This document shows, one piece after another, positions 6,064 through 36,921 of a DNA stretch of 64,000 bases (positions are counted from its first letter, which is position 1; every line of letters begins with the position of its first letter). The position numbers and the translations under genes were made by a program. The notes beneath the pieces were generated by a model, which saw only the letters and a program-made list of their open reading frames with translations, searched no databases and had not been told where the DNA came from. The stretch lies in NCBI RefSeq assembly GCF_007970185.1, contig NZ_CP042431.1, positions 6,865,342-6,929,341 of the forward strand, read 5' to 3'. The stretch comes from Pseudobacter ginsenosidimutans. GTDB lineage: Bacteria > Bacteroidota > Bacteroidia > Chitinophagales > Chitinophagaceae.

Positions 6064-7386
6064 TCAGGAGGTACTTCTGAGCATTTCGAGTATTCCTTCG
6101 TTCTTTATGATCATCATGCCTTGTCTGTCTTCGGTAATGCCTTCCTCGAGCAAATAGGTATAGCGTGGCCTGACGCCATCCATGATGGTAGGCATGAACC
6201 TGAATTGGATATTCTCTGTTTCTTTCAATGCTTCGCCTACTTCGATGATATGGGTACTCACAATGAAAAGGCAATTATGGTATTCAGCAAAGGCTTCCGT
6301 TACTGCCAGGGTTCCATCATAAGCATCTTTCACATTGGTGCCTTTGAACAGTTCATCAAACATCAATAGTAATCTTTTGCCACTGGCGGCCGCATCGGCT
6401 GCTTGTTTTACGCGCACTACTTCTGCATAGAAATGGCTGTAACCAAGACCGATATTGTCAGCTACGTTAATAGAGGAAAACATCCCTTCACGCACGGAAA
6501 ATTCAAACTGCTTTGCTGCTACCGGAAACCCCATATGCGCGAGGTAGATGCCAATGCCGATTGATTTCATCAGGGTGGACTTCCCCGCCATGTTTGCGCC
6601 GGTGAGAAAGATCACATTGGTATTCTCATGCATCAGGATATCATTTCCGATTGCTTTATCAATGCAGGGGTGCGCCAGTTTGGATGCCTGTAAAATATTC
6701 ATCTCAGCCGGCAAAGCCTTTGCATAGGTGAATCCCTTCTTACGAGCAACATTACTAACGGCAATGTACAGGTCCAGTTCGTAAATGAATTGCAGAAGGC
6801 CTTCCATCTCTTCCGGCAAACGACTTTTCAGCAAGTGGTCATATTGAGCAAGAATGCCTACCGGCAGGTCTTGGTAGATATCGGTATTGCGCAATTTTTC
6901 CAGCTGTTTGTCAGAAAGCAACTGTAGCAGCTGATTGACGCGGCTATCCAATGGGCTCTTTAATTGTTGCAACAATTCCAGCATGCCGTGGCAACGGTTC
7001 AGCGTAACGATGGTAGCCTGCAGCCCCTGCACATATTTCTTGTACCGCTCATCGCGTGTGAGCTTGCTGAGTAGTTTCTGGATGATCATGCTGCTGGCGG
7101 TGGCGAAAGCATTTTTTCCGGTGCCTGCATCCAGGTATTCCCGCATGATGTTCAGTTGCTGCACATCGAAGGAAAAGCTCAGGTTCGATTGCTGAAAGAA
7201 ACTGAAAACCTTACTGCGCTGGTTAATACTTCCTGCGTCCAACAGAGGATTCCGGAACATATTGCCCAGCAGCTGTTCTCCTCCCCGGGTCTTGACTTCA
7301 TTGAACAGATGGTATACCGATCCCTGCCTGAATTTTCCCAGCAGGTTCAGTTCATCCACCGTTTGTTTATCTGTATTGAATTGCAT
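6064..7386 (-). CDS. MutS-like ATPase A, left arm (MutS core and ATPase domains only)
   Basis: This 440-residue protein starts in a MutS core/lever-like region (TRGGEQLLGNMFRNPLL...INQRSKV, residues ~33-60) and ends in a MutS ATPase domain. Visible motifs are Walker A GANMAGKST (~263-271), the MutS-type NIGLGYSHFYAE segment (~311-322), Walker B LLLMFDE (~339-345) followed by LFKGTN, and STHIIEVGE (~377-385). The N-terminal mismatch-recognition and connector domains of MutS are absent, as are the Smr and KOW domains of MutS2. A direct mismatch-repair role is therefore unlikely. It is the last gene of the block, 126 bp after its paralog B, with a GC-rich palindromic element between. By inference A and B form a heterodimer, as MutS-family ATPases dimerise. 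Confidence 0.88.
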   Translation of the reverse strand: MQFNTDKQTVDELNLLGKFRQGSVYHLFNEVKTRGGEQLLGNMFRNPLLDAGSINQRSKVFSFFQQSNLSFSFDVQQLNIMREYLDAGTGKNAFATASSMIIQKLLSKLTRDERYKKYVQGLQATIVTLNRCHGMLELLQQLKSPLDSRVNQLLQLLSDKQLEKLRNTDIYQDLPVGILAQYDHLLKSRLPEEMEGLLQFIYELDLYIAVSNVARKKGFTYAKALPAEMNILQASKLAHPCIDKAIGNDILMHENTNVIFLTGANMAGKSTLMKSIGIGIYLAHMGFPVAAKQFEFSVREGMFSSINVADNIGLGYSHFYAEVVRVKQAADAAASGKRLLLMFDELFKGTNVKDAYDGTLAVTEAFAEYHNCLFIVSTHIIEVGEALKETENIQFRFMPTIMDGVRPRYTYLLEEGITEDRQGMMIIKNEGILEMLRSTS

Positions 7387-7404
7387 TATTGTAGTATTTA
7401 ATCA

Positions 7405-7500
7405 GCGTGTGCCCAGTCGCTTGACTCCCGGCGAGTGACTTTTGTTAGTTCGCCTCCGGCGACAAAATAGTGGTCACTCGCCGGAGGCGAGCGACTGCGG
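7405..7500. repeat. GC-rich multi-hairpin palindromic element between MutS-like genes (left arm copy)
   Basis: Outer arms at 7415-7439 and 7473-7496 are near reverse complements (AGTCGC...GGCGAGTGAC versus GTCACTCGCC...GCGACT). The right arm is itself foldable (CTCGCCGGAGGCGAG), and a third copy of the core, TTCGCCTCCGGCGAC, lies between them at 7449-7463. Flanks (GCGTGTGCCC on one side, GCGGCACTCCG on the other) are shared with the second copy at 36781-36903. It may be an RNA structure that separates or stabilises the two MutS-like cistrons, or a REP-like element. Confidence 0.7.
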
Positions 7501-7512
7501 CACTCCGACAAT

Positions 7513-8817
7513 TTATTGAACTGCCCGCTTGCGGCCATTCTTCAATGTTTCCAGAATGCCTTCATTACGAATGATGATCATGCCGTGACGATCAGCAGTA
7601 ATGCCGCGCTCTAACGTATAGGTATATTCGGGTACATTGCCATTCATTCGGGTAGGCAGGAATTGGAATCCAATATTGGGAACCTGCTGCAAGCGTTCTC
7701 CCGCTTCCACAATATGTGAAGAGATGATGAACATGCTGTTCCTCTTTGCTGCAAAGGCAATTGTGATCTCCACTGTAGCTTCATGCGCATCTTTCACATT
7801 GGTGCCCCGGAACATTTCATCAAAAATGATGAAGAGGGATTTGTTGGCCTGAAGCTCTGCCGCCACTTTCTTCACCCGCAATACCTCTGCATAAAAATGG
7901 CTGGCGCCGATACCGAGATTGTCCGGCAAATTGATGGTAGTATAAATGCCATCCAATACAGAGAATTCCATTTCCTCTGCCGCCACCGGAAAGCCAATAT
8001 GCGCCACATATACCGCTGTGCTCACAGAGCGCAGGAAGGTTGATTTTCCCGCCATATTCGCACCAGTAAGAAAGACCGCATTTTGTTTGGGACTCATGCC
8101 AAAATCATTGCTCACGGGTTTTGCCAGCTCCGGGTGATAAACACCCTTAAGCCGAAGAATGCTCTTGCCTTTCTCTAACGCCCTGGGAAATACGAAATTC
8201 TTATCACGCGCTACTTTGGCAACTGACAGGTACACATCCAACTGATATATCTGCGCCAGCAATTGTTCAATTTTATTTCTTTCCCGATGCCGGAACAGGA
8301 GATCGTAAGCTGTGATGGCTGCATAGCTCAATTTTGCTTTGCCCTGTTCACGCATTACCGGTTCAAAAGCAGGGTCAAGGAGTAGGGAGGCAATCACCTC
8401 CCTTTCCTTTGACCAGGACTCCATGGCTATGATTTCCTTCTTTTCAATGAATGCTTTGATCTGTTGAACCAGTGTGATCAGCGCCGTTACACCATGGCTG
8501 ATCTCTTTTTCACTGAGCACTGAATGTTGCATTCCCTGCTTTTTTTGTTCATCAGCTGCTATCAGGTATTTTTCCGCCATATCGAATAAGGCTCCTTCAA
8601 AAGGGAACTGCATATCCATGCCTGAGAAATATTTGATGATATTGCTTCTCCGGTTGATCTCCTGCTGATCACTCAATGGTTTGGTGAACATTTCCTTCAA
8701 CACAGTTTCTGCGCCGCGGGTATTTGAATAATTGTAGAGATCGAATAAACCTTGACTGTCTCGCTTGCCGAAGATCCGCAGATCTTCGATCGTTTGTTCA
8801 TCCGTTAACAGGTACAT
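7513..8817 (-). CDS. MutS-like ATPase B, left arm
   Basis: This 434-residue protein has the same architecture as its neighbour A. A core/lever-like start (TRGAETVLKEMFTKPLSDQQEINRR) is followed by helices and the ATPase domain with Walker A GANMAGKST (~252-260), LGIGASHFYAE (~301-311), Walker B LFIIFDE (~328-334) plus MFRGTN, and SSHIVEAGE. Mismatch-binding and Smr domains are missing. It begins 11 bp after the ABC permease gene, so it is almost certainly co-translated with the transporter. A and B are clearly related but distinct, as expected for an obligate heterodimer (inference). The right-arm counterpart at 35469-36773 has the same length and is mostly identical by eye. Confidence 0.88.
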   Translation of the reverse strand: MYLLTDEQTIEDLRIFGKRDSQGLFDLYNYSNTRGAETVLKEMFTKPLSDQQEINRRSNIIKYFSGMDMQFPFEGALFDMAEKYLIAADEQKKQGMQHSVLSEKEISHGVTALITLVQQIKAFIEKKEIIAMESWSKEREVIASLLLDPAFEPVMREQGKAKLSYAAITAYDLLFRHRERNKIEQLLAQIYQLDVYLSVAKVARDKNFVFPRALEKGKSILRLKGVYHPELAKPVSNDFGMSPKQNAVFLTGANMAGKSTFLRSVSTAVYVAHIGFPVAAEEMEFSVLDGIYTTINLPDNLGIGASHFYAEVLRVKKVAAELQANKSLFIIFDEMFRGTNVKDAHEATVEITIAFAAKRNSMFIISSHIVEAGERLQQVPNIGFQFLPTRMNGNVPEYTYTLERGITADRHGMIIIRNEGILETLKNGRKRAVQ

Positions 8818-8828
8818 GATATAATGGA

Positions 8829-11171
8829 TTATTGTCGTTTACGTCTGAGAAGGATTACGGAACCGAGGACCAATACAGCGGCGGGCAGGATCCATAAGAG
8901 AATGATCTTTTGTATCTGAGCGGCTCTTAGGCTAATGATCAGTAATGTATCGGTAGCCGGAATAATCTCGAGTGTGATAGGAAAGGATTCATAATTCAGC
9001 CAGCTCAGATAATTATTTCCAAACCCATGCGTGCCACCTCTCAGGCTCGACATAAAATCAGCATCCCCCACGATAGTAATTCTTTGTTCTTTTTTTTCGT
9101 ACTGCCTGCTTAAGGCCAGGGCTACAGTAAAAGAATCTGATTTATAATCCCCTTCACTGGCAACAAATACCGGGGCTGCTGAGTCGGTCACCAAACGCCC
9201 TGCTTTTGCCCAGACCAATCCTTTTGGACCAGTTACCATCAACCGGGAAACGGTAAAGCTACTGTCAACAAACGAAAGGGCCGTAGCGCCGGGATGAAGT
9301 GCTTTAACCGAATCACCCTTCTGGAAAAACGTTCTGATTCCCTGGCTGAAACTTTTGTTTTCCTTCAGAAGCCAGGAATGGTCCATGGTTAAATAAGGAG
9401 TTATTTTGTCCGGTGTCTCATTCTTTGAAATTTGTACGAGGGTACCTGGCATCAATGATACGCCTACTTGCTTTACCAGCGGGTTCAGTACATATTGTTT
9501 ACCGGGTTCACCCAATATCAATAGATTCCCTCCGGTATTGATAAATTGCTTTAACCGCTCAGTCACCGTATCATTAAGCACCACTTTGGGATCAGCCAAC
9601 ACAAGTGCGCTGGCATCAGCCGGTATGTTTTGAAAATTCAGGTTCAGACTGTCGAATTCGAAGCCGTGATTGATCAGTGCCATTCTGCTCAATTTTTTGA
9701 TTGAATAGCCAAAGAATTCCCGTTCTCCTGTTTTGTATATGTCGCGCTCCAGGTTGCCGGTAGTAGCATAAATTTTTGGAATGGTATCATTCGATAGTCT
9801 TTTCAACGCGGCAGCAACATGATCCTGCCCGGGCCAGTAGTTTGGGTCCTCATAATTCCGCAAAAAGATTGTCTTCCCTTTGTACTTTAATTGCATCACT
9901 GCCCTTAACATTTCCGGTTGTAAGTCGATCTTTTTTCTGATCTCTTTTGGAGGAAGATACCTGTTGATATTGGTTTCAAACATTTTGGCATATTCCCTGG
10001 CAATTGAATCAAGGCTCATTCCCGGCATTCGTTTATAAATACCATTATCCCCATCCATCACATCATAATACAAAACATAATTGAATTTGATATTGGGTTT
10101 AAAGCGAACATACTGGTCCCAAAAATTCCAGATATAGTCGTTGCGTTTGTCCGGACGTGTTCTTCTAAAACCCATGCCCGGATCCAGCAGATTGGTATAC
10201 AATGTAACTTCCAGGGGTTCATCCTGCATGTTTTTCAGGATGCTCTGTGTTTTCTCAGCAATCGTATTTGCCTGGTCCCTGGTGCCATCCCAATATCCGA
10301 TATATCCAGGTCTGGAAGTGAGATAACCTGCTACCATAACCGAAAGGAAGACTGTCAGGTAACGGACTGCTTTCTTACCTCTCGATACCAGTTCTCTTCC
10401 ATGCAGTAAACTCAGGTAGCTGAATGTAACAAACATATAGGTGATAAGCGCATAGTACATAACATCCCTGGTGGTGATCAGTCCTTTCAACATCCGGTAA
10501 GCTCTACCCTCGATACTCAGGAACCAGGTGAGGTCACGCACAAAATCATATTCCTGCCACAATCCCCCAATTCTTTGCAACACAAACAACAGGATAAAAG
10601 TGGCAATAGCTGCAACGATCTGGTAGTTGGTGATACTGCTCATGAACATGCCTATAGCCGTATAGGCACAAACAACCAGGTAAAAAGCAATGATCCCTGC
10701 GCATAGATGTCCAACATCAATATTTTTGATACTGAAAGCGCCGATGATCATGAATCCTGCCATGATCGACATCAACAAGAGATTGTAACCCATTATTGCC
10801 AGGTACTTTCCCCATACGATCTGACTGAGCTTTACCGGGGAGGAATAGAGCAGTTTCACCGTTCCGTTATTAAATTCCCGGTTGATCAATCCCATTGTCA
10901 ACAGGGGAATAAACAGGTAGAGATTGTTGAATATATTTCCAATAAAACCTTGCTGTCCCTGCCCCATGAAGATCGATTTGGTAAGGGACCCAAACCCTTT
11001 GAACGAAGGGTTGGTCCGCATGAATGAGTCTTGAAAATTGGCCATCATCTCAAGCGATCCCGTATAGAAGACTGCACAAATGACCACGAAAATCAGGGTT
11101 AGAAACCAGGCCACCGGCGAGAAAAATAAATTCCAGAGCTCTGTTCTGGCAATCTTAAATATCATTTTCAT
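8829..11171 (-). CDS. Fused GldF/GldG-like ABC transporter permease with auxiliary periplasmic domain
   Basis: This is a 780-residue protein. The N-terminal ~260 residues are an ABC-2-type permease: several hydrophobic segments beginning with FFSPVAWFLTLIFVVICAVF, and the motif GLINREFNNGTVKLLYSSPVK typical of GldF-like permeases. From about residue 270, after another membrane segment, comes a large soluble region resembling GldG / ABC-auxiliary domains (LEVTLYTNLLDPG, YATTGNLERDIYKTGEREF, ALVLADPKVVLNDTVTERLKQFINTGGNLLILGEPG). A C-terminal membrane helix (IILLWILPAAVLVLGSVILL) and RRKRQ end the protein. In Flavobacterium GldF and GldG are separate gliding/secretion proteins; here they are one chain. 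It follows the ABC ATPase gene by 18 bp. The right-arm copy carries a frameshift, so this is the intact copy. Confidence 0.9.
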   Translation of the reverse strand: MKMIFKIARTELWNLFFSPVAWFLTLIFVVICAVFYTGSLEMMANFQDSFMRTNPSFKGFGSLTKSIFMGQGQQGFIGNIFNNLYLFIPLLTMGLINREFNNGTVKLLYSSPVKLSQIVWGKYLAIMGYNLLLMSIMAGFMIIGAFSIKNIDVGHLCAGIIAFYLVVCAYTAIGMFMSSITNYQIVAAIATFILLFVLQRIGGLWQEYDFVRDLTWFLSIEGRAYRMLKGLITTRDVMYYALITYMFVTFSYLSLLHGRELVSRGKKAVRYLTVFLSVMVAGYLTSRPGYIGYWDGTRDQANTIAEKTQSILKNMQDEPLEVTLYTNLLDPGMGFRRTRPDKRNDYIWNFWDQYVRFKPNIKFNYVLYYDVMDGDNGIYKRMPGMSLDSIAREYAKMFETNINRYLPPKEIRKKIDLQPEMLRAVMQLKYKGKTIFLRNYEDPNYWPGQDHVAAALKRLSNDTIPKIYATTGNLERDIYKTGEREFFGYSIKKLSRMALINHGFEFDSLNLNFQNIPADASALVLADPKVVLNDTVTERLKQFINTGGNLLILGEPGKQYVLNPLVKQVGVSLMPGTLVQISKNETPDKITPYLTMDHSWLLKENKSFSQGIRTFFQKGDSVKALHPGATALSFVDSSFTVSRLMVTGPKGLVWAKAGRLVTDSAAPVFVASEGDYKSDSFTVALALSRQYEKKEQRITIVGDADFMSSLRGGTHGFGNNYLSWLNYESFPITLEIIPATDTLLIISLRAAQIQKIILLWILPAAVLVLGSVILLRRKRQ

Positions 11172-11189
11172 CCGTATTTATTTTAATTC

Positions 11190-12110
11190 TTATTGAATGG
11201 TTTGGGTGGATAATTGTTTGAAGATGTCATCGAGCTGACCTTTTTCAAGATTCACTTCACGGATGCGCCAGTCTCTTTGCACACCAGCCACTATGATCCT
11301 TTCAGTGATGTCTTCTTCTCCATCGAAAAAAATACGGGCTTGTTTATCGGTAAGATATTCAGCCCTGGTAATGCCCTGCACCTGCTGCAATTCAATTACA
11401 GGCGGAGGATTGGCAAATCGTACCAATACACTTTGAGGCTGCATATAATTATTGAAAGCATCCATCGAATCGGAAAATATTATCCTCCCCGATTCGATCA
11501 TGATCACTTCCCTGCAGAGCAGATGGATCTCAGAGAGGATATGAGAAGAAAGCAATACCGTTCTTTCCCGGGCAATCTCCCTGATCAGTTTGCGTGCTTC
11601 GATCAGTTGATTGGGATCGAGACCATTGGTAGGTTCATCCATCACCACGAGCTTTGGCTTATGGATAATGGCCTGGGATATACCTACCCGTTGCCGGTAA
11701 CCGCCTGACAAATTCCTGATCACCCTTTTGCTGAAATGTGTGATACCGGTCTTTTCTTTTGCCTCTGCTACGGCAGCTTTTACTTTGCGGCTTTCTATTT
11801 TCCGTAACTCAGCAGTATAAGTCAGGTATTCATCCACGGTGAGGTCCAGGTATACCGGAGGGTTTTGAGGAAGGAAGCCAATAGACTGCTTGGCGAGTTC
11901 AGGTTGCTTCCTGATATCGGCACCGTTGATGAATACATTGCCTTCGGTTTGGTTAAGTGCACCACAAATGATATTCATGGTGGTGGACTTGCCTGCACCA
12001 TTGGAACCAAGCAGGCCAATGATCCCGTTATCCGCGATCTCTATATTGATATCGCGAATGGCCCAGTTGGCGCCGTAACGGTGAGAAAGGTTTTCTGTTT
12101 TTAAAATCAT
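11190..12110 (-). CDS. ABC transporter ATP-binding protein (GldA-like), left arm
   Basis: The ATG at 12110 gives 306 residues beginning MILKTENLSHRYG, the same length and start as the right-arm copy; the upstream in-frame extension has no conserved counterpart. Motifs are Walker A GSNGAGKST (~35-43), Q-loop near Q82, signature LSGGYRQ (~134-140), Walker B LVVMDEP (~154-160) and switch His in LLSSH (~190). After the nucleotide-binding domain there is a ~90-residue C-terminal domain, as in GldA-type ATPases. It should energise the adjacent fused permease. Confidence 0.93.
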   Translation of the reverse strand: MILKTENLSHRYGANWAIRDINIEIADNGIIGLLGSNGAGKSTTMNIICGALNQTEGNVFINGADIRKQPELAKQSIGFLPQNPPVYLDLTVDEYLTYTAELRKIESRKVKAAVAEAKEKTGITHFSKRVIRNLSGGYRQRVGISQAIIHKPKLVVMDEPTNGLDPNQLIEARKLIREIARERTVLLSSHILSEIHLLCREVIMIESGRIIFSDSMDAFNNYMQPQSVLVRFANPPPVIELQQVQGITRAEYLTDKQARIFFDGEEDITERIIVAGVQRDWRIREVNLEKGQLDDIFKQLSTQTIQ

Positions 12111-12193
12111 GCATCTGTATTTATAAATTTTTGTGGAAGAGGCATAACCCGGCCTGGTCAATACAGTTTCCTGTTTTGAACCGGGGTGATCTT

Positions 12194-12217
12194 ACAGCTG
12201 GTCCGAAGACCAGTTGT
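12194..12217 (-). other. UUCG-loop hairpin between lipoprotein and ABC ATPase genes
   Basis: On the minus strand the sequence is ACAACTGGTC-TTCG-GACCAGCTGT, a 10-bp stem with one G-T wobble capped by a very stable cUUCGg tetraloop. No T-run follows, so full termination is not expected. It lies in the 140-bp gap where the right arm instead carries an additional ECF sigma gene, and may separate expression of the outer-membrane and transporter halves of the operon. Confidence 0.55.
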
Positions 12218-12250
12218 TGTTCTAATCGATTTAGAAAAAATGTTGAGGGC

Positions 12251-13225
12251 TTATCCGGGTAACCGGAATCCCGCATTCAGGGCAATATCCCTGATGGCAT
12301 TGAATTTTTTCAGTATAAGCGTTTTGCCTGCATTAATGCTTTCGAATTCCTGTGGCGTATAATAAAAAGCTGCTGTGAGAAAAGCCCTGAGATCTTCCGA
12401 TTCTCCCGGAGGAGCTACCGGGTCTGGCATGCCCATCCAGATGGCAAATGCATTTTTGAAATACTTCATGAATCCCAGGTTTTGAGCAGGAGGAACCGTA
12501 TAGATTCCGAGGAGAACGAATGGAGTACCAGAGTAAATATCTGTGGAAGTCATTGCTTTGGCAGCAGTTCTCGAGATGCTGAAAAAGTCCCTGCTTAGAT
12601 GCTGGTAGGCATCCCTTTTCAGCCGTCTTTCTGCCAGTCCGGCAAGCAGCGATGATAAATACATTCTTTGCTCGTCTGCATTCATCGCCTCCACATCTTT
12701 TACGGAAATAGCCACGGTATTGAACCCATGAAAGGACGTCCAGCCATCAGCTATATCAATGTTCTGTTCCGGGTGGAGGGTCCAGATAGAATCAACAAAG
12801 AAGAGGCTTGGGATCTGAAAATTTTCGGGTAATCCGGGAAGGAATTCCTGTTTCAGCAAATGCAGTAATGCCGGAATTCTGCTCTTGTTTGAAACAGGTT
12901 TGAAATTAATGCTCTGTTTGCTGTAAAAGGTATAGGATAAAGACAGCGTTATATAGGTATACTTCGGTTGTCCTTCGTTGTTACCAACATGTTTCCGGTG
13001 AATGGTGTCATTGCAGAAACCGGCAATGCCGGTGGCATTATAGAATTCATAGATTGCATGATCTACCGGATCATTGGGATTGTCTTTTACAACGAAATAG
13101 TTTTCGTCCTCATCGCTGGGAACAAGTGCATTTTCTTTGCGGCAACTTACAACGGAAAGCAATAATGCAATCAGACAGCAGGTGATCGTTGACGTTGGTA
13201 GTATTCGTGGCAATAATTGTTTCAT
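12251..13225 (-). CDS. Lipoprotein resembling the SusCD-linked zinc metallopeptidase-like family, active site apparently lost (left arm)
   Basis: This 324-residue protein has a lipoprotein signal (LLLSVVSC, Cys28). Layout and spacing recall the putative zinc-binding metallopeptidase lipoproteins that follow SusC-SusD pairs in Bacteroidota: an IYEFYNATGI segment (~58-67), a central helical region, DFFSIS (~213-218), an EDLRAFLTA helix (~277-285) and a final GKTLILKKFNAIRDIALNAGF helix. Where that family has HExxH, this protein reads SSLLAGLAERRL (~191-202), so it would be a pseudo-enzyme. The assignment is from pattern recall only. It begins 34 bp after the SusD stop and may act as a surface lipoprotein of the SusCD complex. 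Confidence 0.6.
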   Translation of the reverse strand: MKQLLPRILPTSTITCCLIALLLSVVSCRKENALVPSDEDENYFVVKDNPNDPVDHAIYEFYNATGIAGFCNDTIHRKHVGNNEGQPKYTYITLSLSYTFYSKQSINFKPVSNKSRIPALLHLLKQEFLPGLPENFQIPSLFFVDSIWTLHPEQNIDIADGWTSFHGFNTVAISVKDVEAMNADEQRMYLSSLLAGLAERRLKRDAYQHLSRDFFSISRTAAKAMTSTDIYSGTPFVLLGIYTVPPAQNLGFMKYFKNAFAIWMGMPDPVAPPGESEDLRAFLTAAFYYTPQEFESINAGKTLILKKFNAIRDIALNAGFRLPG

Positions 13226-13259
13226 GATACTGTGGAGTTAGGATGAATGATGGAATGGG

Positions 13260-14771
13260 TTATTGCTTACGGGGGCGTGCAGGTCTTGGTTCATTGGTAA
13301 GCGATCCCTGATTGAATTCGATCTCATCTTTGGGAATGGGTACAATATAGGCTGCAGCGTCCTGCTCATAAGGCCCCAGTTCATAATATCCGTAGTCTAC
13401 ATGCGCACTACCTGAAAACGTGTAAGTGCGGTGCCTGATCGATTTGCTGAACGGATATTTCGAGTTTACTCCATAGCGACGCAGATCGAACCACCGATGT
13501 GTTTCAAAACAAAGTTCCTTTCTCCGTTCACCCCTGATCTCGTTCATAAGCACTGCCCCTTCTGAAGTCACAGGTGTAAGTGCATCTGGTTTGAAGCGTC
13601 TCTTTCTCAATTCTTGTAATGCGATCCGGGCTTCTTCAAACTGTCCGAGTGCGGCAAGCGCTTCGGCTTTGTTCAGGTAAACCTCGGAAAGACGAACAAG
13701 GTACATGGCAGAAACATCGTCGTTGGTACCGTTCAGATCTTTTCTCTTTTTTCCCAGTTTCAGGTAACCTTTGCTGGTTTGAATAAAGAATACCTGACGG
13801 CGAAGGTCCTCCTGAGCATAGATGCCTGCAAGATCATCCGATATTCTGTAGAAGCCATTTGCCGGAGCGTCCTGGCTTATATTCATGAGAACAGGGAATG
13901 GATCTTTTCCCATCGTAAATACAACTTCATCAGCATTCCGGATGAGAAAATTGTTTCCCGCGATATGATTGTTGAGGTCAACCAACCGGTATTTATTGTT
14001 GCTGATCACTTTGCCGGCATACAATACTGCTTGCTCATAGTTCTCCATGAAGAGATACACCCTGCTCAGCAAAGCCTGTACAGCTGCCTGATTGGGGCGG
14101 ATGGTAGAAGTGGTATTGGCGCCTGACAACTCCTGCTCAGCCAGCAGCAGGTCAGCAACAATCTGATCATATACCTGCTGAACGCTGCTGCGGGAAGCGA
14201 ATTGATCCTTAATAGCAGGGTCTGTTTTTAAAGGAACGCCAAAATCATTGGCTGCCGTCGATGGCTTATATGGCTTTCCATAAGTATTCACCAGGATAAA
14301 ATAATAGAAGGCCCGAAGAAAGTGGGCTTCCCCGGAAATCCTGTTCAATGCAGTAGCAGGTTCTCCCTTTTCTCTTAAGTCGGGGATAAGGTGAAGAATT
14401 GTATTGATACGCACGATCCAGGCATATAGTCCCGCAAAAATGCTATTACTATTTATCGGATTCCCTTCGTTATCTATTGCCGGATCAGGCTGCCAGTAAT
14501 AATATCCGGTATTCATGGTCCGCAGGCCATCGTAGGTGACATTTTCGGGCTTTCCTAATTCCACATCATCATCCATGGTAAACCACATGTCAGGAATAGA
14601 ATTGTCTAACTTGTTGTATACTTCTCCAACCAGTAGCTCATCGAGATCGGCAGTTGTTTCAATGAAACTTTTATTCTGGGAATAGGAAGCAAGGAATTTT
14701 TTGCAGGATATGCCACTGATGGATAGTATGCAAAACAAGGAAACAAGTATGTTGTTGGTAGTTGAATGCAT
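13260..14771 (-). CDS. SusD/RagB-family surface lipoprotein, left arm
   Basis: The ATG at 14771 gives 503 residues beginning MHSTTNNILVSLFC with lipobox ISGISC, then KKFLASYSQ. It is the same length as the right-arm SusD. Family features include the NRISGEAHFLRAFYYFILVNTYGKPY segment (SusD N-terminal TPR-like region), VQALLSRVYLFMENYEQAV, YLNKAEALAALGQFEEA, and a C-terminal EIRGERRKELCFETHRWFDLRRYG. SusD proteins bind ligand at the cell surface and act as a lid on SusC. The start lies 10 bp after the SusC stop, so the two are co-transcribed. Confidence 0.95.
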   Translation of the reverse strand: MHSTTNNILVSLFCILSISGISCKKFLASYSQNKSFIETTADLDELLVGEVYNKLDNSIPDMWFTMDDDVELGKPENVTYDGLRTMNTGYYYWQPDPAIDNEGNPINSNSIFAGLYAWIVRINTILHLIPDLREKGEPATALNRISGEAHFLRAFYYFILVNTYGKPYKPSTAANDFGVPLKTDPAIKDQFASRSSVQQVYDQIVADLLLAEQELSGANTTSTIRPNQAAVQALLSRVYLFMENYEQAVLYAGKVISNNKYRLVDLNNHIAGNNFLIRNADEVVFTMGKDPFPVLMNISQDAPANGFYRISDDLAGIYAQEDLRRQVFFIQTSKGYLKLGKKRKDLNGTNDDVSAMYLVRLSEVYLNKAEALAALGQFEEARIALQELRKRRFKPDALTPVTSEGAVLMNEIRGERRKELCFETHRWFDLRRYGVNSKYPFSKSIRHRTYTFSGSAHVDYGYYELGPYEQDAAAYIVPIPKDEIEFNQGSLTNEPRPARPRKQ

Positions 14772-14781
14772 GGTCTTGTTT

Positions 14782-17700
14782 TTAGAAACTAAGATTGAAG
14801 TTGAGCGCATACACTGGTCTGATTGAAAGGTTAATATTGGGCGCAGATCCGGATTGTGATGGATCCTGACCACGCAGCGCTTTGTTGGCAATGGTAAAGA
14901 GATTGGAACCTGTCAGTTGAACGGTAGCGCCTTTGATATGCCATTGACTGCAGATTTCACGCGGGAGCATATAACCTAAGGATATGTACTGCAGTTTCAG
15001 GTAGTCTCCTTTCACTACCCGCAGATCGGAGAAATCGTACATCTGGTAATAATCGTTGGCAAAAGACATGTTGAGTAATGTGGGACTGTTTCTCCACCAG
15101 GGAAACACTGCGTCTCCTGAGATTGCCGGAATAGTGGTAGTCTTTTCATCTCCCGGGGTACGCCATCTGTTTACGAATTCTTTACGCAGGTTTTGTTGGG
15201 AGCTGGGCCGGTATGTTCCATAATTACCTGATGCGATCTGCATCAAACGGACTTTATTGCCGAGACTATAGGTGAGGGTAAAACTGAGCGACCAATTTCT
15301 GTAAAGGAAGGTATTGGTTAGCCCTCCCTGTAATACTGGTTCCCTTCTACCAGACTCAACCATCACTACATTGAAGAGTTGTTCTTTTGTTAACTTATTG
15401 TACTCAGAAGCAAGTGTTGCTGCATTTTCAGGTTCTGCTCCATAAAATACAGGAAAACCACGGGTAGGATCCAGCGTTTTAAAACGATAAGAATAGAATG
15501 TGTTCACCGATTTTCCATTGACGGGCACTTTGCCATTCAGGAAATCTGTATAGGTGAGGGCAGCGAGGTCAACCAGCACATTGCGGGTTTGGAGATTGTT
15601 GTTGATAAGCCTGTTGAATACCTGTCCGAGCTGCGGATCGAACCGCCATAAGAGTCCATTTTTATTTTCTGTTCCTTTATTGTTGATGATTCTGAAATGA
15701 AGGCCGATTTCCACGCCCTGGTTCTCAACAGTCCCTCCATTTACCACGTAGGTAGTTAACCCATTTACAGCTGATACTTTTTTATTCAAAAAGGCATTGT
15801 TGGTTTTGCTGTAGAAATACCCCAGGGAGCCGCTGATCCTTCCGCTCAATACCGAGAATTCGATACTCCCATTGTAGTCATGCTTTTTTTCCCAGCTGAG
15901 GTCCGGGTTGGGAAATGAAACCATGCCAGCGCTAAAGGAACCATAATAACTATCGAGTGCCCCCTTTTTGATCACCGCATTAGGCGATTGCCCTGGTAAC
16001 ATATTCCCTTGAGTTCCGTAAGAGAATCTCAGTGCCGCAAAGTCTACCCAGGATAGATTTCGTAGCAGGTCTTCCTGCATATTCCATCTGCCGGATAATG
16101 CCCAGGTGGGCAGGAATTTCTCATTGCTCCTGGACCCGAAAGCATTCGAATACTCCTGACTGGTAGTAGCAGTGATCACATAACGTTCATTGAATACCCA
16201 GGTGGAAGTCAGAAAGGTTCTTATGGAGTTCTGAAGATCTGCTGTGATAGTGCCCGATGCATTGTTTCGCAGCCAGTTCCTGTAAGTGATATATTTGGCC
16301 AGATCGATATCCGCAAAACTCATTCCGCGGTTTGGATAATATCCTCTTCTGATATGATCATATGAATTGTTCCGGTTGGAGATCAATTCAGCTCCGATAG
16401 CGGATGTTAATTGATGTTTTTTTTGACGGTCGAGAAATTTGCTGATATCCAGGCGGCCATTGATGGTGTAATTCTGTCTCCTGACTGTTTGCTGACGGAG
16501 CTCGCCACCAAAAGGTATCAAATCCCGGTTTGGCTCAAAAATATTTGTAAGGATATTGTAAGAAGGATTTCTGATCTGTGCTACCCATTCCGTATTTTCT
16601 TCAAACCAGATTTGGTGATCGGCATTTCCACCTGTGTAAGCCAGCGTTGAATTGAATTGAATACCCTTTGAAATTTCAAATCCAAGATTAGCGCCTGCAG
16701 TATATTCACTGTTCTCTATCGTTTCTCCGGTATGATTTATTTCGTTGATTATATTCATTGTTTTTGAATCATAGAAAGACGTAGTGAAGGTATTGGAGCT
16801 GATGGTAGAGTAGTAATACAATGAACCATCTTCGTTGTACAATGGAATGGCGCGGCTGGTTCCGTAAGCATAATTGAGCAAGCCGATTTCCTGTGGTGTG
16901 TACCTTCGTTTCCCCTGGTTCAACTGCACAAAAAGCTCAGCTTTAAATTTTTTGTAATTCAGAAGCAGGTTCAAAGATCCAGTCAGGCGTTTATTGTTTT
17001 CCTTTTTGATCACTCCGGGTTCTGTATTGTATCCTACTGATGCGCGATAAGATGCCGAAGCGCTACCTCCGGATATACTGAGGGTGTGATTGGTAGCCAA
17101 TACGTCTTGCATCGTGTTTCCCAGCCAGTCGGTGTTGACAGTTTCCGCTTTGTCGACCCTTTGTTTGAAGGTATTATAATCTATGACTCCATCGTAATAT
17201 TCAAGAATAGCTTTTTCATAAGCTTCCAGGCCGCTGCCACGTAAAGTCATTTTTTTCTGGATCATTTCGCGGGAAAGCTCCACGCGCTCGCGGGAATCCA
17301 TCATATAGATCGATCTGTCTGTGTAACGGGGCCTTCGAGTGAAGCTTCCTGTTACATTGTAGTTAATGGTTGGCGGTCCGGGCTTTCCTCTCTTGGTAGT
17401 GATCACGATCACGCCATTGGCAGCCCTTACGCCATATAACGCCGCAGCTGTTGCATCTTTCAATACATCGATCTGCTCGATGTCGTAAGGATTTAAACCG
17501 GAAATGGCATTGCCCAGTAGATTTACGAAATCCGGATCATTGATTCTGTCAGCAGGTATAGGGATTGGATTGGTGCGGATGATTCCATCCACCACCCAAA
17601 GCGGTTCGCGCGAACCAAGTATTGTGGAAGTTCCTCTGATACGTAATTTGGGGGCAGCGCCCGATTGCCCGGAATTCTGCATGAAAGTAAGTCCGGGTAC

Positions 17701-18555
17701 CCGACCTTCCAGCATCTTATCAACCGTGTTCAGTCCGGGTTGCATCACTGAATCCATTCTTAAGGAAGTAACAGAACCCGTCAGGTATTTTTGTTTGATC
17801 TTTTGATAACCGTTGTAGATCACAGCTTCATCCAGCACTTCATTGGAGCGGGCCATTTTGATGACCACATTTTGTGATTCGGGAAATACCAGCTGGCTGA
17901 ACTTTTCATCAATGTCCCGCTGGCGTGATCGCTCAACAGTCACTACCCGGAACTTTTCGCCATTGAGCCGCAGGGCAATGGGCGTGAAACCAACAGCAGT
18001 TATGTCCAGTATTTCATCTTCATTCACCTCCAGTGCAAACTGCCCGTTGGCGCCGGAAGTAGTGCCACGTTTGGTTCCCCTGATGCGTATGCTCACATTG
18101 GAAATGGCCTGGTTGTCTGCATCCACAATTCGACCGCTCACAGGAGGGGCATCTTTGTAAACGGTAGCAGGCCGGTAAGAAAGAACAACTGTTTTTTCTT
18201 CGATGGCAAAGCTCACAGGCTGGTTGCTGAATACCAGTTGCAGCAGTTCCTGCAAAGGCATATTGTACACCGAGAGTGTAACAGGTTTTGTATTATCCAG
18301 TATCTCCTGATTGTAGAAGACCAAATAACCTGTTTGTTCTTTGATGGCAGTGAATACATTCTTCAGTGGAATGTCTTTTCCGGAGATCGTCACTTTCTGT
18401 GCAGTCCCTGATGCATGCACCTGTAAGAAAACGATGGTCAAAAGCAGGGCGGTTAGTTTCATAACCAGCAGAATTTTGGTGAAGGGGCTTCGTCTTCCCC
18501 GCTGGCAATTAGGCACAAGCGGGTTTGAACCTGACCCGGAAGCAGTTTTTTGCAT
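14782..18555 (-). CDS. SusC-type TonB-dependent receptor with STN domain, left arm
   Basis: The ATG at 18555 (MQKTASGSG) gives 1,257 residues, close to the 1,260 of the right-arm copy. A ~31-residue leader precedes the signal segment MKLTALLLTIVFLQVHASG. An STN domain (EQTGYLVFYNQEIL) follows, then a regulatory-like beta domain (VSGRIVDADNQAISNVSIRIRGT), a TonB-box-like stretch near VLDEAVIYNGYQ, a plug (VLKDATAAALYGVRAANGVIVITT) and the barrel. The plug is almost identical to the right-arm SusC while the STN domain is only about half identical by eye, matching the divergence of the cognate FecR proteins. It imports an unknown ligand and signals to the FecR at 18769-19956. Confidence 0.95.
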   Translation of the reverse strand: MQKTASGSGSNPLVPNCQRGRRSPFTKILLVMKLTALLLTIVFLQVHASGTAQKVTISGKDIPLKNVFTAIKEQTGYLVFYNQEILDNTKPVTLSVYNMPLQELLQLVFSNQPVSFAIEEKTVVLSYRPATVYKDAPPVSGRIVDADNQAISNVSIRIRGTKRGTTSGANGQFALEVNEDEILDITAVGFTPIALRLNGEKFRVVTVERSRQRDIDEKFSQLVFPESQNVVIKMARSNEVLDEAVIYNGYQKIKQKYLTGSVTSLRMDSVMQPGLNTVDKMLEGRVPGLTFMQNSGQSGAAPKLRIRGTSTILGSREPLWVVDGIIRTNPIPIPADRINDPDFVNLLGNAISGLNPYDIEQIDVLKDATAAALYGVRAANGVIVITTKRGKPGPPTINYNVTGSFTRRPRYTDRSIYMMDSRERVELSREMIQKKMTLRGSGLEAYEKAILEYYDGVIDYNTFKQRVDKAETVNTDWLGNTMQDVLATNHTLSISGGSASASYRASVGYNTEPGVIKKENNKRLTGSLNLLLNYKKFKAELFVQLNQGKRRYTPQEIGLLNYAYGTSRAIPLYNEDGSLYYYSTISSNTFTTSFYDSKTMNIINEINHTGETIENSEYTAGANLGFEISKGIQFNSTLAYTGGNADHQIWFEENTEWVAQIRNPSYNILTNIFEPNRDLIPFGGELRQQTVRRQNYTINGRLDISKFLDRQKKHQLTSAIGAELISNRNNSYDHIRRGYYPNRGMSFADIDLAKYITYRNWLRNNASGTITADLQNSIRTFLTSTWVFNERYVITATTSQEYSNAFGSRSNEKFLPTWALSGRWNMQEDLLRNLSWVDFAALRFSYGTQGNMLPGQSPNAVIKKGALDSYYGSFSAGMVSFPNPDLSWEKKHDYNGSIEFSVLSGRISGSLGYFYSKTNNAFLNKKVSAVNGLTTYVVNGGTVENQGVEIGLHFRIINNKGTENKNGLLWRFDPQLGQVFNRLINNNLQTRNVLVDLAALTYTDFLNGKVPVNGKSVNTFYSYRFKTLDPTRGFPVFYGAEPENAATLASEYNKLTKEQLFNVVMVESGRREPVLQGGLTNTFLYRNWSLSFTLTYSLGNKVRLMQIASGNYGTYRPSSQQNLRKEFVNRWRTPGDEKTTTIPAISGDAVFPWWRNSPTLLNMSFANDYYQMYDFSDLRVVKGDYLKLQYISLGYMLPREICSQWHIKGATVQLTGSNLFTIANKALRGQDPSQSGSAPNINLSIRPVYALNFNLSF

Positions 18556-18611
18556 ACCTTTGGGTAAGTTTTGGTGGTGAACTAATAGTAGGACTAATCG
18601 CCTCGTTAGCG

Positions 18612-18662
18612 CCAATAAAACTGCTGCCGGGAGTGGAACAAACACTTCCGGCTTTTTATTGG
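18612..18662 (-). promoter_or_regulatory. Two-tier hairpin in susC 5' leader (left arm)
   Basis: The inner stem is CCGGGAGTG / CACTTCCGG (18627-18635 with 18643-18651, 7-nt loop). An outer stem CCAATAAAA / TTTTATTGG (18612-18620 with 18654-18662) encloses it. The inner stem lies 71 nt before the SusC ATG at 18555. It is the same position and core as the leader hairpins at 3393, 24975 and 49464. Confidence 0.6.
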
Positions 18663-18768
18663 CCTGGTGAAAACAAAGGAAGGTTAATGGTAGCCGGAAT
18701 TGCACCAGCATTCATGGAAGGATAGGTCTGCTATGGTTATTATCTGAACGTACAATTGTTGATGCTCC

Positions 18769-19956
18769 CTACTTTGGAAGCACGATAAGCTTTCTGCCCT
18801 CCAAACGGTAACGAATACCCGATTGTTCGAGCACATTCAATACGCCTTTGAGCGACATACTCCTGGAGAGCTCTCCGCCAAACCGGAGGGCCGGTCTTTC
18901 ATTCTCATACACCACTTCTATATCATACCAGCGTTCCAGTTGCTTCATCACTTCTTCCAGCGGAGTGCCTTCAAATTTGAAAAGTCCACGCTGCCAGGCC
19001 ATCACTTTGGGGATATCCGCATTGCTGATCACCCGAACCATATCTGTCACCTGCGCCTGCTGACCAGGTTTGATCACAACACCATTTACTTTCACACTGC
19101 CATTGATCAGAGTTGTGTTGAGGCTTTTATCGTTATCATAGGCGCTGATATTGAAATCAGTGCCGAGCACTTCTATTGCTGCTTTGTTACGTGCATTCAC
19201 AATGAATGGCTGTTTCGCGTTCTGCTTCACCTCAAAATAGGCTTCTCCATCAAGCTCCACTTTCCGGTGTTTACCATTGAAGACAGTGGGATAACGAATG
19301 GAGCTGGCTGCATTGAGCCACACGCGGGTACCATCGGGAAGTGTGATCTCAAACTGTCTTCCCCTTGGCGTGGTCATGGTATTGTATGCTGTTGCTGCCT
19401 TGCTTTCTGTTACAGGATCATAGGTGAGCCGGCCATTCTGCATCGTCACTTCCGATCCGTTCTGTTCAGTCAGCCTGCCATTACCGATGCTGTCGAGCAC
19501 AATCTGTGAGCCATCTGCCAAAGTGAGGATGGCGCCTGATTTGCCCGGCACAATCAATGTATCTTTCATTGACGACACAACCTGCCGGGTTGCTGGCTCC
19601 TGATGACGGCCCAGCCATACATAGGTTCCGATGCCCAGCAATACAACGGCCGCAGCAGCATACCTTATGAAGCCCCTTCTGAGGAATGGGATCTGTGGAG
19701 GAGCTGATACCGGCAATGGAGCTGCCAGCTCAGGTATCTGATCCTGTATTTTAGCATAAATAGACTCCCCTGCCCCGGCTATAACTGCCAGTTCCCTCGC
19801 AATCACTGCGGGATCATCCAGTCTCTGCACCATTTCCCGGTTTTCACCGGATTCAGCCAGCCATTGCTCCAGCAGCACTGTTTCTTCAGCGTTCAAAGGC
19901 TCGTGCAGGCGTTTCTTTAATAGTGAAACTATTGTATTGTATTGTGCAGCATTCAT
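18769..19956 (-). CDS. FecR-family anti-sigma factor, left arm
   Basis: This 395-residue protein has a soluble N-terminus (~1-90), one membrane segment (YAAAAVVLLGIGTYVWLG, ~95-113), a FecR domain with TPRGRQFEITLPDGTRVWLNAASSIRYP split by family-typical strands, DGEAYFEV, and a C-terminal DUF4974-type domain (MKQLERWYDIEVVY ... LSRSMSLKGVLNVLEQSGI). It follows its sigma gene by 27 bp. It is clearly divergent from the right-arm FecR (388 residues), more so than the structural genes downstream, so the two arms are probably controlled independently. Confidence 0.95.
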   Translation of the reverse strand: MNAAQYNTIVSLLKKRLHEPLNAEETVLLEQWLAESGENREMVQRLDDPAVIARELAVIAGAGESIYAKIQDQIPELAAPLPVSAPPQIPFLRRGFIRYAAAAVVLLGIGTYVWLGRHQEPATRQVVSSMKDTLIVPGKSGAILTLADGSQIVLDSIGNGRLTEQNGSEVTMQNGRLTYDPVTESKAATAYNTMTTPRGRQFEITLPDGTRVWLNAASSIRYPTVFNGKHRKVELDGEAYFEVKQNAKQPFIVNARNKAAIEVLGTDFNISAYDNDKSLNTTLINGSVKVNGVVIKPGQQAQVTDMVRVISNADIPKVMAWQRGLFKFEGTPLEEVMKQLERWYDIEVVYENERPALRFGGELSRSMSLKGVLNVLEQSGIRYRLEGRKLIVLPK

Positions 19957-19983
19957 GATTGTAAATAGAAAACGACTGAAGGA

Positions 19984-20574
19984 TTATTTTGTATTGATGA
20001 AAACCAGAAAAAAAGAAAAAAGATTTTCCTTTTTTATGATCTCCATTCGCAGGGTCTTGAGAGAACGGGCCAGGTGGTCCCGTACAGACTGATTATTGAT
20101 GCCCAGCTTTTGCGCGATCTCTTCATTGCTGAAGCCCCCGAGATACCTGAGCTTGAAGATCTCTTTTCCCCGGGGTGGTAATTGTTCAATCTGGTGGTAT
20201 ATCTCCTGCAGGAGCTCTGCATACATATCGGCTACAGAAAATTCCTCCTGCGGATAGCTAATGGCGGCCACTTCGCTTTCTTTCCGGCTTTTTACCTGCT
20301 GGTGCTTAAGCAGATCGAGTGTTGCATTCCTGGTAGTACGCCTGAGCCAGGCAGCCGTTTCAGGCAAAGAAGTGAATTGGTGACGGGATTTCCAGAATTT
20401 GACAAAAGTATCGGCCACGATATCTTCAGCTTCACTTTTGCTGTTGAGCATTTTATAGGAAAGATGGAAAAGCCCGGGAAACATTCTATTATAAAAAACC
20501 GCGAAAGCTTGCTTATCAGCATTCGCGATCAAAGGGAGTAATTCCTCTTCATTGTATGGTAGGGACCCTGGCAA
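19984..20574 (-). CDS. ECF RNA polymerase sigma factor (FecI-like), left arm, TTG start
   Basis: This 196-residue protein has sigma-2 motifs SEAEDIVADTFVKFWK and WLRRTTRNATLDLLKH, and a sigma-4 helix-turn-helix (FSNEEIAQKLGINNQSVRDHLARSLKTLR). The reading frame has a stop (TAA) five codons before the TTG at 20574, and no ATG or GTG precedes the sigma-2 region. TTG is therefore the probable start. It differs strongly from the right-arm sigma (23123-23710). It should drive the left-arm block when triggered via SusC and FecR. Confidence 0.9.
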   Translation of the reverse strand: MPGSLPYNEEELLPLIANADKQAFAVFYNRMFPGLFHLSYKMLNSKSEAEDIVADTFVKFWKSRHQFTSLPETAAWLRRTTRNATLDLLKHQQVKSRKESEVAAISYPQEEFSVADMYAELLQEIYHQIEQLPPRGKEIFKLRYLGGFSNEEIAQKLGINNQSVRDHLARSLKTLRMEIIKKENLFSFFLVFINTK

Positions 20575-23122: not shown

Positions 23123-23710
23123 TTGATTAGTGCAGCTTTTTATAATGATCCACAGTTTCCGGAGCGCTTTGCCCAGGGCGAAGAAAATGCATTCCGGCAG
23201 GTTTTTGACACCTATCTCAATCCCCTTTGTTTCTTTGCTCAGAAACTGATTGGCAGCCGCATGGAGGCTGAAGACATTGTAAGTATTGCTTACTACAAAC
23301 TCTGGCAAAGACATAAGGACTTTTCTACAGCTGCAGGGATCCGGTCCTTCCTCTACACTACCGTCCGGAACCAATGCCTGGATTACCTGAAACACCAGAA
23401 AGTAGTAGCAGCAGCGCATCTTCCCAATCCCCTTACTGATAGTGGGATTGAAGCAAAAATGTACCAGGGTGAATTACTCCAGCTGATATATATGGAGATC
23501 CATTCATTACCTGAACGTGCCAGGCAGATCCTGGAATGGAGCTTTATAGAGGAATTGTCCACCACCGAGATCTCAGTGAAAATGCAAATGACCGAATCCC
23601 ATGTACGCGTGGAGAAATCCCGCGCGCTGGTTCAGCTCCGGGCCGCTTTACGCAAAAAGGATTTGTGGGACTCCACTCTTCTGCTTGCCTTACTCTGGCA
23701 GTCGTCCTGA
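23123..23710 (+). CDS. ECF RNA polymerase sigma factor (FecI-like), right arm, TTG start
   Basis: This 195-residue protein has sigma-2 motifs (MEAEDIVSIAYYKLWQ, FLYTTVRNQCLDYLKHQKV) and a sigma-4 helix-turn-helix (LSTTEISVKMQMTESHVRVEKSRALVQLR). No ATG or GTG is in frame upstream; a TAA lies 11 codons before the TTG at 23123, which I take as start (an in-frame CTG is also possible). The tail WDSTLLLALLWQSS is hydrophobic. Similarity to the left-arm sigma is limited to conserved family positions, so the two arms should recognise different promoters or signals. Confidence 0.9.
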   Translation: MISAAFYNDPQFPERFAQGEENAFRQVFDTYLNPLCFFAQKLIGSRMEAEDIVSIAYYKLWQRHKDFSTAAGIRSFLYTTVRNQCLDYLKHQKVVAAAHLPNPLTDSGIEAKMYQGELLQLIYMEIHSLPERARQILEWSFIEELSTTEISVKMQMTESHVRVEKSRALVQLRAALRKKDLWDSTLLLALLWQSS

Positions 23711-23773
23711 TAAATATCTTAAAAAATTAATCGTTTTTCTGTAGCGAAAGAACGGGAAGATCGTTTTAGTGAT

Positions 23774-24940: not shown

Positions 24941-24974
24941 CCTTATCCTGCGATCATTACTATCCTGCAAAAAG

Positions 24975-24998
24975 AAAGGCAGTGGGGATACTGCCTTT
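24975..24998 (+). promoter_or_regulatory. Hairpin in susC 5' leader (right arm)
   Basis: Perfect 9-bp arms AAAGGCAGT / ACTGCCTTT enclose a 6-nt loop, preceded by an A-rich run. The hairpin ends 69 nt before the SusC ATG at 25068. Position, arm length and the GGCAGT core match the leader hairpins of the other SusC genes. Confidence 0.6.
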
Positions 24999-25067
24999 CA
25001 AGATTCCGGGATTGGTTCAAACTGCGTGTAACAATTTTTCTTCAAAACCCAAAACTGCAACTAAGTT

Positions 25068-28850: not shown

Positions 28851-28860
28851 AAACAAGATC

Positions 28861-30372: not shown

Positions 30373-30404
30373 AATTTCCATCATTCATCCCAACTCCTCA
30401 TAAC

Positions 30405-31376: not shown

Positions 31377-31403
31377 TACAGTCAAAGCCTGAACAGATAC
31401 CAT

Positions 31404-32081: not shown

Positions 32082-32183
32082 TCAGTCAGTCACCAGACGG
32101 GCTTACAATGATCTATCAAAAAAATACTTGTATAGATCCGGCACTGCTATGCCCTTTCATTAAATATCAATAAATACAGATGC

Positions 32184-33104: not shown

Positions 33105-33115
33105 AAAATATTCGG

Positions 33116-35457: not shown

Positions 35458-35468
35458 TCCATTACAAC

Positions 35469-36773: not shown

Positions 36774-36780
36774 AACATCG

Positions 36781-36903: not shown

Positions 36904-36921
36904 TGATTAAATTTTACAAAA

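Follow-up and report, generated by a model that had tools for sequence, protein, structure and literature searches.

The window analysed here, a 64,000-nucleotide stretch of the Pseudobacter ginsenosidimutans genome (contig NZ_CP042431.1, positions 6,865,342 to 6,929,341 of the forward strand), contains two arms of an operon in which genes for an outer-membrane SusC-SusD receptor, an ATP-binding cassette (ABC) transporter and two short MutS-like ATPases, B and A, lie together with those for a sigma factor and a FecR-type anti-sigma factor. With near certainty these genes form a conserved unit, as had been supposed in the initial annotation of the left arm: the same set, in the same order, recurs across the genome and in other genera. 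Judged from sequence, the operons couple the sigma/FecR pair and an exchangeable cassette of SusC, SusD and an optional lipoprotein to a conserved putative engine, composed of a GldA/GldF-GldG-like transporter and the MutS-like pair. SusCD systems and MutS ATPases are already known; what appears new is that they are regularly combined by way of an ABC transporter.

The 7.80-Mb single-contig genome has 117 MutS_V matches, which resolve into 56 tandem pairs, each on a single strand, plus five singles. Profiles made from the genome's own families were used to annotate 60 stretches of about 20 kb (L009-L068, which are paralogues), covering all 56 pairs and four of the five singles; the gene calls were simple open reading frame (ORF) calls, in which some genes emerge in pieces. 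Every pair is accompanied by SusC-SusD, GldA and a fused GldF-GldG (GldFG), and 55 of the 56 follow the order SusC-SusD-(lipoprotein)-GldA-GldFG (one or two)-MutSB-MutSA. The 56th (L012 with L189) is permuted and reads MutSB-MutSA-sigma-FecR-SusC-SusD-DUF4843-PKD-GldA-GldFG. In 49 of the 60 stretches the calls include sigma factor, FecR and SusC together; several of the others start inside FecR, and an intact SusD was not called in L018 and L032. Altogether 54 SusD genes were called in these operons, compared with 150 SusD_RagB matches genome-wide.

Matches to the ABC_transp_aux family follow the pairs closely: of the genome's 87, 82 are no more than 6 kb away from a MutS pair, in regions that together amount to 9.7% of the genome, with the reservation that these cases are not independent events because the copies are paralogues. 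One of the other five belongs to the permuted operon, one is an ordinary gldG beside gldF (L208), and three sit in SusCD-GldA-GldFG operons that have no MutS genes (L205-L207), giving 56 copies of the system with MutS and 3 without. The GldA frame of L207 was skipped by the gene caller and found on later inspection. A search for MutS remnants after these three operons returned just two hits, of E = 0.005 and 0.0074, each in a GldA-like frame. The spacing of 10-18 bp that had been noted for many junctions of the left arm holds at only two of its eight (gaps of 126, 11, 18, 89, 34, -110, 57 and 27 bp). Tight packing is nevertheless seen genome-wide, where the median gap is 10-12 bp at four junction types, SusC-SusD, GldA-GldFG, GldFG-MutSB and MutSB-MutSA.

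Beyond this genome, MutSA profile scores split cleanly among the matches listed, with at least 464 bits for the system and at most 325 bits for a single-copy relative. By this split, the system occurs in 26 of 294 genomes of the family, namely all six of the own genus and 20 from nine other genera. The six genomes of the genus, one of which is 88% complete, have 117, 55, 39, 26, 12 and 9 MutS_V matches; a range of 9 to 117 in one genus would mean very fast expansion or loss. Copy numbers from the multi-genome searches, which scored the best few candidates per genome, are lower bounds, whereas the genus search scored all. From a phylum sample of 395 genomes three passed E ≤ 1e-105, including the window's genome and one more family member, and from a class sample of 395 again three, including the window's genome and one (G979) with a lone unpaired gene.

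Nine further genera of the family show the canonical gene order again, as do Pedobacter, Mucilaginibacter and Sphingobacterium. The 20 other-genus genomes supplied 40 loci, of which 35 carry SusC and/or SusD and the ABC genes upstream of the pair in the same order (30 complete, three without a SusC called in range, two with one gene uncalled). L085 is of the permuted type, with GldA-GldFG following on in its continuation L191. The pair of L083 neighbours a SusCD-ABC set that runs on the other strand, L097 is truncated by the end of its contig, and L091 has a partial GldFG followed by other genes. Named records with the system come from Pseudoflavitalea, Pseudobacter, Chitinophaga, Niabella, Pedobacter, Mucilaginibacter, Sphingobacterium, Longitalea, Puia, Flavitalea, Sediminibacterium and Odoribacteraceae. 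The named-genome set consists of the best 80 of 583 confirmed loci, and three of the 40 other-genus loci are also within it (L082/L137, L085/L154 and L086/L151). Here 68 of the 80 are canonical (65 complete, two without SusC called, and L140 without GldA called), five are permuted with SusCD downstream, on stretches that stop before the ABC genes, and L118, L153 and L161 end at contig ends. An occurrence of the pair mostly without SusCD or ABC genes, which the initial annotation had named as contrary to its model, is contradicted by these 68 loci and by the 56 pairs of the genome. We take Chitinophagaceae and Sphingobacteriaceae to be the families of the records that keep the association.

Each of the window's MutS-like proteins (about 435 amino acids) matches Pfam domains III and V only, domain III of MutSB (PF05192) at 33.7 bits being just under the cut-off of 34.1, and Walker A is intact in both. 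No match to the mismatch-recognition (I), connector (II) or clamp (IV) domain was found in the window proteins (Pfam, E ≤ 0.001) or in two fused relatives (E ≤ 1); the genome's own MutS1 does match II and IV, the compared MutS1 stretch excluding domain I. KOW and SMR had no Pfam match in the window proteins or the two fused relatives, and the proteins stop shortly past domain V. The earlier statement that a mismatch-recognition domain is lacking is thus borne out, and extends to the connector and the clamp. In a tree of 22 randomly drawn pairs, A and B form two sister clades, and in 23 loci B and A are fused into a single ORF; no fusion of MutS to GldA, GldFG or other operon genes was found among ORFs of at least 600 amino acids in the annotated loci L009-L204. 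The two sister clades, the constant pairing and the 23 B-A fusions make the predicted A-B heterodimer very likely, in line with the initial annotation. The pair is also predicted, with high confidence, to serve a function other than on DNA mismatches. Isoelectric points are 7.07 for A and 7.45 for B, and 8.35 and 6.62 for their N-terminal halves.

MutS-like genes also occur singly. In L192 (3528-4868; G979) a lone gene with domains III and V falls outside the A and B clades and stands, by eye, amid arginine-biosynthesis-like genes. L056 (14244-16028) encodes a single protein of 594 amino acids with hydrophobic segments near its N-terminus, and L019 (3453-4766) one of 437 amino acids whose gene adjoins, by eye, a dihydroorotase-like gene; a gene scoring like the L019 type occurs in most genomes of the family. 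A lone 170-amino-acid MutSA fragment in L058 (3498-4010; genome 6849789-6850262), about 4 kb from an intact pair, is possibly the remnant of a lost operon copy.

For the correlation test, all six genes were called whole in 113 of 148 distinct operons (39 of them from the window's genome). Correlations of the distance matrices are highest for SusC-SusD (0.94), MutSA-MutSB (0.93) and GldA-GldFG (0.87), followed by MutS-GldA (0.83-0.84) and MutS-GldFG (0.71), and are lowest across to SusC (0.44-0.51). The partial correlation of MutS with ABC given SusCD is 0.75, and that of MutS with SusCD given ABC is 0.22. Mean identity in the 39 genome operons rises from SusC (0.29) and SusD (0.30) through GldFG (0.41) to MutSB (0.57), MutSA (0.58) and GldA (0.64). 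The lipoprotein slot has four states, holding one of three alternative types (DUF4397, type b, or DUF4843+PKD_2) or none. Over 38 operons of the genome, its states require three changes on the SusC and SusD trees, which is the minimum, and 10-13 on trees of the individual MutS and ABC genes. Few changes on the former and many on the latter indicate that the receptor cassette, including its lipoprotein, moves as one piece. On the reading of these trees, with which the partial correlations agree, receptor cassettes have been exchanged over a conserved inner engine.

The transporter genes resemble those of the GldA-GldF-GldG transporter of gliding and the type IX secretion system: the ATPase is nearest GldA, the permease nearest GldF, and ABC_transp_aux is present as in GldG. 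PMC5682007 describes GldA, GldF and GldG together as a probable ABC transporter that gliding requires. In the operons, however, F and G are fused, a separate gldF-gldG locus exists elsewhere in the genome (L208), and the NCBIfam equivalogs for GldA, GldF and GldG all score below cut-off (TIGR03522, 269.9 against 402.6 bits; TIGR03518, 67.3 against 288.5; TIGR03521, 16.1 against 389.85). The next-best NCBIfam models for the ATPase, DrrA (186.6 bits) and lantibiotic protection (172.7 bits), are likewise below cut-off.

The accessory lipoprotein had been described as peptidase-like, a label that proves weak: the window protein has no Pfam match (E ≤ 0.001) or NCBIfam match (E ≤ 1), and the HExxH motif is absent from all 36 called members of the type-b family. 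An AF2 model of the protein gave no Foldseek match at E ≤ 0.001 (best E = 0.13, several of the top matches being zinc metalloproteases), and a profile search of PDB sequences returned chance-level matches only. A catalytic zinc peptidase was rejected on the missing motif, the Foldseek result and the profile search. The protein shares with the TIGR04549/Peptidase_Mx1 zinc metallohydrolase lipoproteins its place after SusD, and one relative (L068) matches that family weakly (TIGR04549, 23.0 against a cut-off of 75), but it differs in the lack of HExxH and in that the DUF4397 and DUF4843+PKD_2 types fill the same slot.

We put at about even the chance that the operons encode a modular TonB-dependent uptake system, with exchangeable receptors, probably for peptides, placed over a common engine of ABC transporter and MutS heterodimer. 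In such a system, the ligand, most likely a peptide and different for each receptor, would be caught by SusD and pulled through SusC by TonB, and a ligand signal passing via the STN domain and FecR to the sigma factor would switch on the receptor's own operon. The ABC part would handle the ligand, or a product of it, at the inner membrane. The B-A heterodimer would be a clampless ATP-driven switch in the cytoplasm, working on the ABC transporter or its cargo and not on DNA; transporter or cargo as its target is proposed only tentatively. A more specific picture, possible but rather unlikely in our estimate, is that a MutS-family heterodimer was turned from a DNA clamp into an ATP-driven gate bound to GldA/GldFG or cargo, one kind of motor under dozens of exchangeable peptide receptors making up many separately regulated uptake channels. 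The association suggests that MutS-type machines have been recruited for transport work.

Clues to the ligand come from genes contiguous with the operons, both in other members and, for a few operons (e.g. L014, L055, L057), in this genome; among these genes are 23 M16 peptidases, 21 DUF4369-redoxins and 16 S41 peptidases (proteins per similarity cluster, each cluster identified from one example). A POT peptide transporter adjoins the lone fused MutS of L176, and RagAB, a relative of SusCD, is implicated in protein uptake (PMC11817032). These leads point to peptides without showing a peptide ligand, and whether the ligand is peptide-like appears to us evenly poised. In the Pedobacter loci L166, L172, L173, L177, L179 and L184, and in L167, a fatty-acid-hydroxylase-like gene (identified in L166) comes after an M16 peptidase and an extra GldFG.

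Several observations weigh against this scheme. The three MutS-less SusCD-ABC operons of the genome indicate that the ABC part can exist without MutS. L080 has SusCD and MutS but a double redoxin instead of the ABC genes, L183 has ABC and MutS without SusCD, and in L176, L181 and L188 (Odoribacteraceae) a fused MutS has no ABC or SusCD genes in the available upstream sequence (9.9, 4.1 and 1.8 kb); these five loci count against a strict dependence of MutS, ABC and SusCD on one another. The permuted operon of the genome looks decayed, its SusC being broken into two pieces and its SusD into three; L015, L037, L041 and L046 have split or short MutS frames, and the MutSB frame is uncalled in L023. 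Support for clade A is only 68, the high divergence of SusC and SusD by itself lowers their correlations, and the window's own operons encode no peptidase. Moreover, ABC-2 permeases are mostly exporters, so that import via GldFG is unproven and export equally possible.

The main alternative builds on this last point. GldA/GldFG would expel a harmful ligand, for example an antimicrobial peptide, admitted by the receptor, and the MutS pair would power or gate this self-protection. The ABC-2 permease match, the DrrA and lantibiotic-protection models standing next for the ATPase, albeit below cut-off, and the many paralogues with diverged receptors, as would fit an arms race, all agree with such a role, but no toxin, immunity or biosynthesis gene was noticed among the matched families, and we hold it to be unlikely. 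PADLOC, too, matched MutSB only weakly, in a P-loop region (best E = 0.0028), and its matches for GldA were of the ABC-ATPase type, mad3 being the best (E = 1.8e-25). MutSA, GldFG and the lipoprotein had no PADLOC match at E ≤ 0.01, and there was no match to a specific anti-phage system for the operon's MutS, GldFG and lipoprotein genes.

It is less probable still that translation or some other cytosolic complex is the target of the pair, in the way that MutS2 splits stalled ribosomes and KamC is named as a reactivase, and that the pair is co-regulated with uptake since the ligand causes the corresponding stress. MutS2 is a MutS-family ATPase outside DNA repair that splits collided ribosomes with its ABC ATPase, and it has a clamp, as described in PMC10897456; in the operon proteins, no clamp was found and KOW and SMR were not matched. 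KamC, the lysine 5,6-aminomutase reactivase (NF052383), is likewise a short ATPase of MutS-like type whose name refers to a role other than on DNA, and its model scores 100.1 and 103.3 bits on the two proteins, comparable to TIGR01070 (mutS1) but far below its cut-off of 300; no aminomutase gene was noticed. Such a role would also leave the tie to the ABC genes unexplained.

A role on DNA, either uptake of nucleic acid via SusCD or MutS-like control of recombination among homologous receptor cassettes, we regard as very improbable. It would accord with the MutS ancestry and with the apparent exchange of receptor cassettes between operons, but strongly diverged receptors are ill-suited to one shared polymer such as DNA, and a recombination factor would not require a copy per operon. 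DNA-contacting MutS domains (I, II and IV) and nuclease and DNA-uptake families were looked for among the operon matches and none was noticed, and the recurring neighbours are peptidases and redoxins; the earlier proposal that the pair is used on incoming nucleic acid is accordingly not supported. That the MutS genes are incidental passengers spread by large-segment duplication, which the paralogy of the loci, with its non-independent copies, and the three MutS-less operons might favour, is hardly tenable and already largely refuted, as the MutS module is retained when receptor modules are swapped, and the association with SusCD-ABC persists where A/B identity falls to 36-39% within the genome, in permuted order, and across the Chitinophagaceae and Sphingobacteriaceae records.

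The operons resemble SusCD/RagAB loci in the sigma/FecR pair, SusC with STN and plug domains, adjacent SusC and SusD (TIGR04056; PF07980/PF14322) and accessory lipoproteins, but add the ABC transporter and the MutS-like pair, in 56 copies over one shared engine type. They differ from a polysaccharide utilisation locus in that no carbohydrate-active enzyme is among the Pfam matches of the nine left-arm proteins, the genes beyond the arms lying outside this search. The MutS-like proteins share the ATPase core of domains III and V with mismatch-repair MutS, but differ from MutS1/MSH2 and from MutS2 in having no match to domains I, II, IV, KOW or SMR, in their length, in forming paired sister clades and in their place in transport operons. 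We found no description of the SusCD-ABC-MutS set in the open-access literature, a weak absence, as most subscription papers lay outside the search. MutS is the textbook DNA-repair machine, and here one genome has 56 MutS-like pairs, without known DNA-contacting domains, tied to membrane transport. If this tie is mechanical, the MutS ATPase fold would have a new use, and in SusCD systems the step at the inner membrane would become testable. The paralogous operons also allow the swapping of receptors above a conserved engine to be studied as a natural experiment. Annotating such genes as mismatch-repair proteins would mislead repair-gene counts in these bacteria.

All nine genes of the left arm (6064-20574, minus strand) are open at the coordinates first assigned to them and belong to the families first assigned, the lipoprotein excepted (Table 1). 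The claim that the set is kept in both arms stands as regards gene content, the same genes being present at 23123-38238 on the plus strand; the uneven identities do not fit a clean single duplication. With sigma factors 32% and FecR proteins 40% identical between arms, against 90-91% for MutS and GldA, the regulators seemingly do not stem from the same copy event. They may have been swapped between copies (18769-20574 versus 23123-24940).

Table 1. Genes of the two operon arms in the window, with matches and identities between arms.
Feature	Position	Strand	Basis
Extracytoplasmic function (ECF) sigma-70 factor, left arm	19984..20574	-	TIGR02985 127.4 bits (cut-off 126.4); Sigma70_r2/r4
FecR-type anti-sigma factor, one hydrophobic segment, left arm	18769..19956	-	PF04773, PF16344; hydropathy
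SusC/RagA TonB-linked outer-membrane receptor with STN, left arm	14782..18711	-	TIGR04056 506.5 bits, above cut-off; STN, Plug
SusD/RagB lipoprotein, left arm; listed start overlaps SusC, probably too early	13260..14891	-	PF07980, PF14322
Type-b accessory lipoprotein, left arm	12251..13225	-	No HExxH, no family match; AF2 model, mean predicted local distance difference test score (pLDDT) 78.8
GldA-like ABC ATPase, left arm	11190..12161	-	TIGR03522 269.9 bits, below cut-off 402.6
Fused GldF-like ABC-2 permease and GldG-like ABC_transp_aux, left arm	8829..11171	-	PF12679, PF09822; 5 hydrophobic segments
MutS-like ATPase B (III and V only), left arm	7513..8817	-	PF00488 90.5 bits, PF05192 33.7 bits; Walker A intact
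MutS-like ATPase A (III and V only), left arm	6064..7386	-	PF00488 87.8 bits, PF05192 37.9 bits; Walker A intact
ECF sigma factor, right arm	23123..23710	+	32% identity to left
FecR, right arm	23774..24940	+	40% identity to left
SusC, right arm	25068..28850	+	78% identity to left
SusD, right arm	28822..30372	+	75% identity to left
Type-b accessory lipoprotein, right arm	30405..31376	+	67% identity to left
Second sigma-like gene, C-terminal hydrophobic segment, right arm only	31404..32081	+	PF08281, PF04542; hydropathy
GldA-like ABC ATPase, right arm	32184..33104	+	91% identity to left
GldFG, two overlapping ORFs (370 and 414 amino acids), right arm	33116..35457	+	74-82% identity to left
MutS-like ATPase B, right arm	35469..36773	+	91% identity to left
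MutS-like ATPase A, right arm	36922..38238	+	90% identity to left

A split GldFG, as in the right arm, is also found in L030 and L049 of the same genome, decay, frameshift and sequencing error being indistinguishable. The second sigma-70-like gene between lipoprotein and GldA is present in nine operons of the genome, eight with the type-b lipoprotein and L037; a membrane-tethered sigma factor, as its C-terminal hydrophobic segment might suggest, would be unusual. Beyond the right arm, the window (38361-64000) holds two more SusC/SusD sets on the minus strand, amid large genes that look, by eye, like those of secreted enzymes. Several of the latter appear mutually similar by eye, 38361-41012 with 51592-54282, and 41343-43757 with 54294-57095 and 57120-59840.

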